Shown in pieces: positions 47,702 to 50,291 of a DNA stretch of 58,993 bases; positions within the stretch are counted from its first letter, which is position 1; every line of letters starts with the position of its first letter. The DNA comes from an uncultured Christiangramia sp. (GTDB lineage Bacteria; Bacteroidota; Bacteroidia; Flavobacteriales; Flavobacteriaceae). Location of the stretch: the NCBI RefSeq assembly GCF_913046405.1, contig NZ_CAJWRQ010000003.1:1-58993 (forward strand), in the 5' to 3' direction. The notes under the pieces were generated by a model that saw nothing but the letters and a program-made list of their open reading frames with translations, was not told the DNA's origin and did not search any database. A program made the position numbers and the translations under genes.

Positions 47702-48340
47702 ATGTATCGAGTATTAATTGCAGACCATCATCCAATAATTTTTGAAGGGATTAAATGCGTACTTCAGAACAATCCGGCACTACAGGTTACAGGCAGAGTA
47801 AGTAGTGGCACCCAATTGTTCAGTCAGTTAGAAAAGAACACTCCCGATGTTTTGATCGTGGAACTGGATCTTCCGCAAATCAACGGTATCAACGCCATTA
47901 GAAGGATCAAGCAGGAATTTCCTGAGGTAAAAACACTTATTTTTAGTTCACATCCAGAAGAAATGTATGCACTGAGCGCCATTAAAGCCGGAGCCGCAGG
48001 TTATATTTCCAAACATACAGATAGTGAAACTCTGGAGAAGGCAATTTACCAAGTTGCAAGAGGCGGAATCTACTTAAATCGTAAGATCACCGAAAAATTA
48101 AATTCCGGTATCACGAGAGGTAAGAGTTTGATTACAAAATTTAAGAAGCTATCTACCCGCGAAACGGAAGTATTAAATCTGCTTTCTTCCGGTAAAAGAA
48201 ATAAGGATATTGCTGAAGCGCTGGACATTAACGAAAAGACAGTAAGCACTTATAAAACCAGGTTGCTGAAAAAGCTTAAAGTAGATAATGTTGCAGATCT
48301 TATTACGCAATCCAGATTATTACAATTAAATACTACATAA
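47702..48340 (+). CDS. LuxR/NarL-type response regulator with Glu at the phospho-acceptor site
   Basis: A 212-aa regulator: receiver domain (1-120) and a LuxR-type HTH (about 150-210, LSTRETEVLNLLSSGKRNKDIAEALDINEKTVSTYKTRLLKKL). The acidic pocket has Asp8, and the conserved Lys lies in AGYISKHTD. The position that normally holds the phosphorylated Asp (LLxD-x-x-MP) reads LIVELDLP: Glu54, with Asp56 two residues on. No sensor kinase gene is adjacent. The gene lies between nadE and dnaG and overlaps the dnaG 3' end by 8 bases. Confidence 0.92.
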   Translation: MYRVLIADHHPIIFEGIKCVLQNNPALQVTGRVSSGTQLFSQLEKNTPDVLIVELDLPQINGINAIRRIKQEFPEVKTLIFSSHPEEMYALSAIKAGAAGYISKHTDSETLEKAIYQVARGGIYLNRKITEKLNSGITRGKSLITKFKKLSTRETEVLNLLSSGKRNKDIAEALDINEKTVSTYKTRLLKKLKVDNVADLITQSRLLQLNTT

Positions 48341-50291
48341 CCCTGCCCAGACGATCGGAAAGAATTGTACTTAAACTGGTATAGCTCATAATATCCTGAA
48401 TCTTTTCTGTTCGTTCTTCTTCTGAAGAGACTTGACGAATTTCTTCCATAAGTTCGTTGATCTTACGACCAACCAGAAATCTACGTAATGATAGTATAGT
48501 CTGGGTTACGAATTGTGTAACTCCCTGAGTTTTGCTTTTTACTGGAATGTCATGTCGTTCCCAGTCATGAAGTTCATACTGCTCATCTTCCATCAGGATA
48601 TCTGTAAGTTCAACAGCCTGAGATTTCTCAAGGTCATTGATGATCATTTCCACTCCAAATTCATCCTCAGAATTAAGCTTCTCTATCAATAGCGAAAATA
48701 ATTCTCTGAAATCCTTATTGGTAAATTCAATTTCATCCTCCTGAAGATCCAGGTAAATTTTTTCGAATACCTTGGCCTCCTGCACTTCAGATTCATACAC
48801 CGGCTCACCCTGATCATTATGTTTTAGAATAACATCATGAAATTCACCTTCCTGCCTTCCGTAGAGAACAAGCAGACTAATGATCTTTCTTTCCAGAATA
48901 TAAAGCTGATCTACTTTCTTAACTGGAGCAGCTTCTTCATTTCGAACAACCTGCATGGGTTTTTTCTCGGCCCTCGCCGGAGTTTTCCCGTCTTTTTTTT
49001 CTAATTGAGCTAAGGTTGCATATAGAACAGCTTCTGAAATATCCATAATCCGCGAGCATTCCTGTAAATAAACTTCCTTCTGGATATTATCAGGAATCTT
49101 CGCTATACTCTGTACCATATCCCGAATAAGATCTGCCTTCTTTACAGGATCATTTTTGGCTTCATCCATAAGCAGGGAAGCCTTATACGTAATAAAGTCG
49201 TAAGAATTTTCCTTTAAAAACTCCTCCAGTTCTGCTTCAGAATTTGATCGGGCAAAACTATCTGGATCCTCACCCTCTGGGAACGGACAAACTTTCACGT
49301 TCATGCCCTGCTCGAGAATTAGATCAATCCCTCGCATAGACGCCCTGGTTCCTGCAGCATCGCCATCGAACAAGACCGTTATATTTTTGGTCAACCTGTT
49401 GATCAACCTGATCTGTTCTGAAGTTAGAGCAGTTCCGGAAGAGGATACCGTATTTTCTATGCCGCTTTGATGAAATTGTATGACATCGGTATACCCTTCA
49501 ACGAGGTAACAGTTATCTTCTTTGGCAATAGACTGTTTGGCGTGATAGATCCCGTAAAGAACTTTACTCTTATGGTAAATATCACTTTCCGGGGAGTTGA
49601 GGTATTTGGCTGCTTTTTTCGAATTCCCGAGGATTCTTCCTCCAAACCCAAGAACCCGTCCAGACATTGATTGAATTGGAAACATGACTCTTCCTTTAAA
49701 CCGGTCAAATGTCTTTTCATCCTTAACAATGCTAAGACCCGTTTTTTCCAGAAATTCCAGTTTATAGCCATCACCAAGTGCATTTTTCGTGAAAGCATCC
49801 CATTCATCTGGAGAATATCCCAGATCGAACTTTTTAATAGTTTCAGAAGTAAATCCACGTTCTTTAAAGTAGCTTAAACCTATTGCCTGACCTTCATCGG
49901 TCTTATGCATTTGCGTCTGAAAATATTTACTGGCATATTCTGAAACCAGGTACATACTTTCGCGTTCATCGGCCTGCTCCTTCTGCTCATCTGTCTGCTG
50001 CGTCTCCTCTATTTCAATTCCGTATTTTTTCGCGAGATATTTGATCGCTTCAGGGTAATTGAAGTGTTCATGCTCCATCAAAAAAGCAACCACATTACCG
50101 CCCTTTCCGCTACTAAAATCTTTCCAGATCTGTTTCACCGGGGAAACCATAAAACTTGGTGAACGCTCATCTGTAAAGGGACTAAGCCCTTTCAGATTAC
50201 TACCAGACTTTTTTAATTGTACGAAATCCCCGATCACCTCCTCTACACGGGCGGTTTCAAAAACATTATCTATGGTGGTTCTGGAGATCAA
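48333..50291 (-). CDS. dnaG: DNA primase DnaG lacking zinc ligands
   Basis: Makes RNA primers at the replication fork. The 652-aa protein has the N-terminal 'zinc-binding' domain fold (GLSPFTDERSPSF ... KDFSSGKGGN), the RNAP-like/TOPRIM core with VEGYTDVIQFHQ, SSGTALT and VLFDGDAAG, and a helicase-binding C-terminal region. At the four zinc positions it has Ser37, Thr40, Asp58 and Ser61, whereas E. coli has Cys40, His43, Cys61, Cys64 with identical spacing. The start is TTG (50289-50291): no ATG lies upstream in frame and MISRTTIDNVFETARVEEVIGDF matches family starts. Confidence 0.96.
   Translation of the reverse strand: MISRTTIDNVFETARVEEVIGDFVQLKKSGSNLKGLSPFTDERSPSFMVSPVKQIWKDFSSGKGGNVVAFLMEHEHFNYPEAIKYLAKKYGIEIEETQQTDEQKEQADERESMYLVSEYASKYFQTQMHKTDEGQAIGLSYFKERGFTSETIKKFDLGYSPDEWDAFTKNALGDGYKLEFLEKTGLSIVKDEKTFDRFKGRVMFPIQSMSGRVLGFGGRILGNSKKAAKYLNSPESDIYHKSKVLYGIYHAKQSIAKEDNCYLVEGYTDVIQFHQSGIENTVSSSGTALTSEQIRLINRLTKNITVLFDGDAAGTRASMRGIDLILEQGMNVKVCPFPEGEDPDSFARSNSEAELEEFLKENSYDFITYKASLLMDEAKNDPVKKADLIRDMVQSIAKIPDNIQKEVYLQECSRIMDISEAVLYATLAQLEKKDGKTPARAEKKPMQVVRNEEAAPVKKVDQLYILERKIISLLVLYGRQEGEFHDVILKHNDQGEPVYESEVQEAKVFEKIYLDLQEDEIEFTNKDFRELFSLLIEKLNSEDEFGVEMIINDLEKSQAVELTDILMEDEQYELHDWERHDIPVKSKTQGVTQFVTQTILSLRRFLVGRKINELMEEIRQVSSEEERTEKIQDIMSYTSLSTILSDRLGRVM

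Follow-up and report, generated by a model that had tools for sequence, protein, structure and literature searches.

A DnaG primase from Christiangramia with all four zinc ligands of its CHC2-type domain replaced, and the recurrence of this state across Bacteroidota

The window (the whole stretch of DNA analysed, 58,993 nucleotides from an uncultured Christiangramia sp., genome G000) carries on its minus strand the gene dnaG (48333..50291), which encodes a DNA primase of 652 amino acids with a TTG start at 50291. The protein scores 437.1 bits against the DnaG equivalog model TIGR01391, for which the cut-off is 283.6. Residues 3–98 (49998..50285, minus strand) are matched by the Pfam 'CHC2 zinc finger' model PF01807 with 93 bits, against a cut-off of 24.9; the CHC2-type domain is thus present despite its missing ligands, as the preliminary description of this DNA had claimed for the surroundings of the site. 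The RNA polymerase domain, including TOPRIM, spans residues 123–420 (49032..49925, minus strand; PF08275, PF13155 and PF10410), and all of its TOPRIM catalytic acids are present (Glu265, Asp269, Asp309 and Asp311). Within it, residues 380–420 (49032..49154, minus strand) form the putative DnaB-binding stretch, matched by PF10410 with 33.9 bits (cut-off 20.6). The structure of the Aquifex primase (PDB code: 2au3) aligns with residues 7–366 with an E value of 7.5e-62.

The motif at the altered site reads KGLSPFTDERSPSFMVSPVKQIWKDFSSGKGGN. The Cys-His-Cys-Cys zinc site (hereafter, CHCC) is general among bacterial primases. In the window DnaG, counted from the TTG start, the four ligand positions are occupied instead by Ser37 (AGT, 50181..50183), Thr40 (ACA, 50172..50174), Asp58 (GAT, 50118..50120) and Ser61 (AGC, 50109..50111), all on the minus strand, so that the CHC2 ligand set is absent. 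The codons of residues 37 to 61 occupy exactly 50109–50183, and the earlier claim that all four ligands are replaced is correct to the base. The two knuckles of the ribbon have changed from CPFH to SPFT and from CFGC to DFSS; the second change includes Ser60 (AGT, 50112..50114, minus strand), a position that is Gly in most zinc-bearing primases and in 80 of the 83 CHCC rows of the tree described below. In comparison to CHC2 primases of solved structure (the domain 1d0q, and the ZBD and RPD of the Aquifex enzyme 2au3), the domain order, profile, knuckle spacing and TOPRIM acids are alike, and the differences are the loss of all four ligands and the change of Gly60 to Ser. From the absent ligands we infer that the window DnaG binds no metal at this site. 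A sequencing accident was rejected as the source of the change: the nearest named relative, Christiangramia portivictoriae (L033), which is 98% identical over the best segment, carries the zinc-free motif, and the same state is found in 80 of 80 named Flavobacteriaceae-like loci.

A second, standard DnaG, which the preliminary description had raised as evidence that would count against an altered primase, was looked for in G000 (90% complete) with the PF01807 profile, and none was found; the only other match in that genome reaches 14.7 bits, below the cut-off of 24.9, and contains an internal stop. Four genomes of the genus that consist of a single contig (G006, G009, G020 and G022) give one PF01807 match each at E <= 0.001, and other genomes of the genus carry additional, shorter CHC2 proteins. 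The window DnaG is accordingly taken, by its sequence, to be the replicative primase and, as far as found, the sole one of the cell. The short CHC2 proteins of the genus and family (L411–L417 and L420–L422; nine from Christiangramia, one from another genus of the family) likewise lack the zinc ligands. In all ten, read by eye, ligand 1 is Ser and ligand 3 is Asp or Cys, as in the primases, and ligand 2 is Thr or Arg; they differ in being non-DnaG frames of about 285–317 amino acids in which ligand 4 is Leu, Ile, Tyr, Glu or Arg. Short CHC2 proteins of other families (L418 and L419) retain their cysteines. Two long, zinc-free primase-like frames of over 1000 amino acids are found beside a normal DnaG, L201 in G035 and L202 in G030; the residues at their ligand positions are SVDS and STDS.

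Two known systems offer partial parallels. Zinc-free (C-) ribosomal protein paralogues keep a zinc ribbon or knuckle without its cysteines and are used under zinc limitation. The window DnaG resembles them in having a putative ribbon of this kind without Cys; it differs in that the C- proteins are paralogues for zinc limitation, whereas here the one copy found is itself zinc-free. Metazoan TWINKLE is likewise of primase type and altered in its primase region, and animal Twinkle is described as having helicase activity only, owing to changes in the primase domain (PMC3610141, in excerpt). TWINKLE has lost primase activity, whereas the window DnaG retains its catalytic core and the search of its genome gave no other DnaG.

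The ligand positions were read in 266 sequences, comprising the 80 named loci, sequences from other genomes and the window protein; 158 are zinc-free and 108 CHCC. Low-scoring hits, which are likely to be zinc-free, were retrieved by preference, and the ratio 158/266 is therefore no frequency. The rows also include duplicates (the window protein and L001, and several genomes twice) and accessory proteins (L201 and L202, zinc-free; L177, L192 and L263, CHCC). In an evenly drawn class sample 76 of 169 genomes could be read, of which 31 are zinc-free; in a phylum sample, which overlaps the first, 28 are zinc-free among 87 read of 158. The comparison of DnaG across Bacteroidota proposed in the preliminary description gives, for 75 GTDB families, many of them represented by one or two genomes, 46 with CHCC only, 24 zinc-free only and 5 (f17, f22, f58, f74 and f81) with both states. 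It had been suggested that the change is a flavobacterial lineage trait. The 80 named loci, all zinc-free, agree with this, with the proviso that they were chosen for their closeness to the query and count as one lineage, but the suggestion is too narrow, as the state is also found in other families of Bacteroidota and in green sulfur bacteria. The latter are families f27, f29 and f40, whose primases are zinc-free with the residues STCT, STCS, SNCT or SKCT at the ligand positions; the FMO protein was found in 13 of 13 tested genomes, which marks them as green sulfur bacteria or close kin. No PF01807 match was found in G113, G209 and G251 (99% complete) at 1e-15, 1e-15 and 0.001, respectively. 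In a search for viral relatives, four stretches fit a pattern and none encoded a relative.

The replacements follow a narrow pattern. Every zinc-free sequence has at most one ligand residue left, and none of the 266 has two or three, so that loss of the site is close to all or nothing. Across the 158 zinc-free rows ligand 1 is always Ser, ligand 3 is Asp (131) or Cys (27), residue 60 is Ser (155) or Ala (3) and ligand 4 is Ser (131) or Thr (27), while ligand 2 varies freely (T, S, V, K, N, A, G or H). The odds that ten independent losses of Cys by one-base change would all give Ser are (2/7)^10, or about 4e-6, a rough figure that ignores chemistry. Stabilisation by other contacts, as first proposed, fits the recurrence of Ser37, of Ser or Ala at 60 and of Ser or Thr at 61, each in 158 of 158 rows. 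Lys34 and Gln54 also lean with loss of the site; in a matched-pairs scan of all columns (1918 tests, uncorrected), those leaning most outside the five site positions are 73, 56, 88, 34, 387, 63, 64 and 295. The same pattern bears on whether the domain instead holds some other metal, or has residues elsewhere that bind zinc. Asp58 with Ser or Thr could in principle hold Mg or Ca, and Cys is kept at ligand 3 in 27 of the 158 rows; however, Val, Ala, Gly or Lys can stand at ligand 2, and the top 25 column states that lean with loss include no Cys and a single His, at position 125, where the window protein has Gln. We consider metal binding of either kind very improbable indeed.

The history of the site was approached with a tree of 170 primases built without the N-terminal domain; it omits P0001, L001, L201, L202, L177, L192 and L263, rows with fewer than 330 amino acids after residue 100, identical rows, 65 of the 80 named loci and some of the 30 outer rows L113–L142. 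This tree mostly follows the GTDB families, and in f22, f81, f58 and f17 both states lie within one clade each; f74 is not resolved in it. It implies 17 changes of state, of which at least 10 are forced by well-supported (starred) branches. A single zinc-free clade outside the domain was rejected with a p-AU of 4.5e-61 (50 rows, 27 of them zinc-free). The zinc-free state thus appears to have had more than one origin within Bacteroidota as broadly defined by GTDB, probably from an ancestral CHCC state, to judge from the outer rows and the general presence of the site in bacteria.

The tree of the domain itself tells a somewhat different story, with 8 changes of state where the rest of the protein needs 17. 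The tally of independent losses is weakened by this, and the domain may have been exchanged between lineages. The zinc-free domain might accordingly have arisen a few times and spread as a module by recombination within dnaG, leaving the polymerase domain native. For f22 and f17 this would account for a polymerase domain that is family-like (0.67–0.75 identity to their own CHCC members, against medians of 0.53–0.58 to other families) next to residues 2–98 that are not (0.48–0.65, against medians of 0.41–0.73), and in the zinc-free members examined of f58, f81 and f17 the closest domains from outside the family are zinc-free even when eight associated columns are removed. However, the domain tree has 92 columns and a single change forced by starred branches, and the same signal is expected from convergent compensation. 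With the associated columns removed, moreover, the closest domain to both f22 members is a CHCC domain of f18, and the f74 domain is no further from its own CHCC relative than from the medians of other families, so that in f74 the change looks to have occurred in place. In f22 and f17 the domain may have been either exchanged as a module or quickly remodelled after loss.

The serine codons separate the groups further, with exceptions, and this too argues against spread as a module. The codon of Ser37 is AGY in 97 of 98 rows from f1 (20), named Flavobacteriaceae (71) and named genomes without a family (7), where AGY makes up about 0.42–0.52 of all serines in these genes, and in every row of f22, f81, f58 and f62. 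It is TCN in every row of f48, f85, f74, f90, f71, f17, f102 and f44, and of the green sulfur families f27, f29 and f40. AGY and TCN are two base changes apart, which points to two origins or more. Within Flavobacteriales the rows of f3 and f9 and one of the two of f7 have TCN, and f20 and f51 are mixed; the codon class can therefore switch, or there were still more origins. We regard spread of the domain as a module as rather unlikely.

A low zinc supply that affected zinc proteins in general would be another route to a zinc-free primase, and the four-Cys module of the clamp-loader subunit DnaX is indeed also gone in 22 genomes with a zinc-free DnaG (105 genomes examined). Against zinc sparing of this kind, the Cys sets of PriA and RecR are kept in 12 of 12 genomes and the four Cys of LigA in 9 of the 10 aligned, including G020, a genus-mate of G000; in the tenth, G000 itself, the gene is split between contigs and unreadable. 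General zinc loss is ruled against by these cysteines, and the losses in DnaG and DnaX are unlinked in matched pairs, of which there are five, with little power (same way 0.7, other way 0.5, no difference 3.8). Zinc sparing thus seems very unlikely, and a linked loss in DnaX was dropped as part of the finding.

The DnaX losses are an observation in their own right. The DnaX of G000 (L271, G000:C32:16798-17820) lacks the four-Cys zinc module and has a loop 13 residues shorter, and the module is lost in many relatives, including L272 and L273. It is absent in every zinc-free family of Flavobacteriales read (f1, f2, f3, f5, f6, f7, f9, f12, f14 and f16) and in members of f22, f51, f62, f21 and f44; in members of f56, f93 and f99 it is lost beside a CHCC DnaG. 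Over a set of 73 genomes it is kept in 21 of 41 zinc-free rows and lost in 4 of 32 CHCC rows; the corresponding 73-row DnaG/DnaX tree further omits L180, L240 and genome G153, the last because its DnaX, with three Cys, is ambiguous. G050, a tiny genome within the order, on one contig of 344,793 bases, has a zinc-free DnaG (L199) and a module-less DnaX (L344).

Several features are indicative of a domain that is still in use. The acids E265, D269 and D309 are found in 87 of 87 zinc-free rows of the tree, and D311 in 86; further residues of the catalytic core vary little or not at all. Between the window protein and L033, residues 2–100 show a pN of 0.004 and a pS of 0.444, and in 8 of 8 comparisons pN of these residues is lower than that of the polymerase domain; the N-terminal domain is under strong purifying selection. 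The pN/pS values of the C-terminal domain are invalid for the seven relatives after L033, as pN there is 0.32–0.59, probably through unaligned indels. Judging from the sequence profile alone, the zinc-ribbon fold would be retained. AlphaFold2 predictions made with flavobacterial alignment rows only gave a pLDDT of about 30–43 for residues 1–69 in a run of 435 residues, and a mean pLDDT of 48.9 with a pTM of 0.31 in a run of the 110-residue domain.

Whether such a domain still reads the template can be approached through Lys57 (50121..50123, minus strand), just before ligand 3. In the C. difficile primase, K70 beside the zinc motif confers a preference for 5'-d(CCC), which in K70H moves towards d(CTA), and the Aquifex primase is described as similar to the C. 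difficile enzyme in specificity (PMC5204125, in excerpt). The Aquifex primase has Lys at the position of Lys57, which is taken to match K70 on the text of that paper and the 2au3 alignment. Lys57 is present in 158 of 158 zinc-free and 80 of 108 CHCC rows; it is therefore not specific to the zinc-free state, and its invariance there indicates that template reading may be unchanged or even constrained. The altered template recognition that had been suggested in the preliminary description finds no support here. Conceivably, the domain no longer reads the template and the polymerase domain and helicase prime with low site specificity: in B. subtilis the zinc domain must be linked to the polymerase domain for the template to be bound stably (PMC5429622, in excerpt), so that loss of zinc should hurt, and in C. 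difficile the helicase alters primase specificity (PMC5204125, in excerpt). However, besides the invariance of Lys57, the mean column identity among flavobacteria is 92% for residues 1–110 (66 rows) compared to 86% for residues 1–435 (58 rows). We think it quite unlikely that template reading has been lost.

The explanation that we favour, with a probability of roughly two in three, is that of a working, metal-free zinc ribbon, hydrogen-bonded through Ser, Thr and Asp and still reading the template, which arose more than once from CHCC primases. The side chains of Ser, Thr and Asp would accept hydrogen bonds from backbone NH groups as the thiolates of zinc knuckles do, in the manner of ST- or Asx-turns, and both knuckles and the ribbon would hold their shape without metal. 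The domain could then still dock on the RNA polymerase domain and read the initiation trinucleotide, with Lys57 pointing to a C-rich initiation site such as d(CCC), and all positions of the site would have changed in concert as the zinc-free state came from a CHCC ancestor. Hydrogen-bonded knuckles agree with the fixed residues at ligands 1, 3 and 4 and at position 60; ligand 2 fits less well, as Val, Ala, Gly and Lys cannot all bond alike. The hydrogen-bonded knuckles, the priming site, the direction and number of the changes and any advantage they may bring are what we infer from these patterns. A broader version, which we offer tentatively and hold to be doubtful, is that SPF[S/T/x] ... [D/C]F[S][S/T] represents a general metal-free ribbon, evolved repeatedly in primases and accessory CHC2 proteins and in part moved as a module, that reads the template equally well, so that a large part of Bacteroidota can initiate primers without zinc.

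In the open-access literature as searched, no report of a zinc-free DnaG was found, subscription papers being outside the search; within that scope the window DnaG is a new variant of a known enzyme whose zinc-free form is apparently undescribed. In the accepted view, DnaG selects the start of each Okazaki fragment through its zinc domain. If the favoured reading is correct, zinc may not be needed for the template-reading step of primer initiation. The occurrence of primases with and without the zinc site within five GTDB families makes the role of the metal testable through sister enzymes, and primase inhibitors aimed at the zinc domain may miss flavobacteria.
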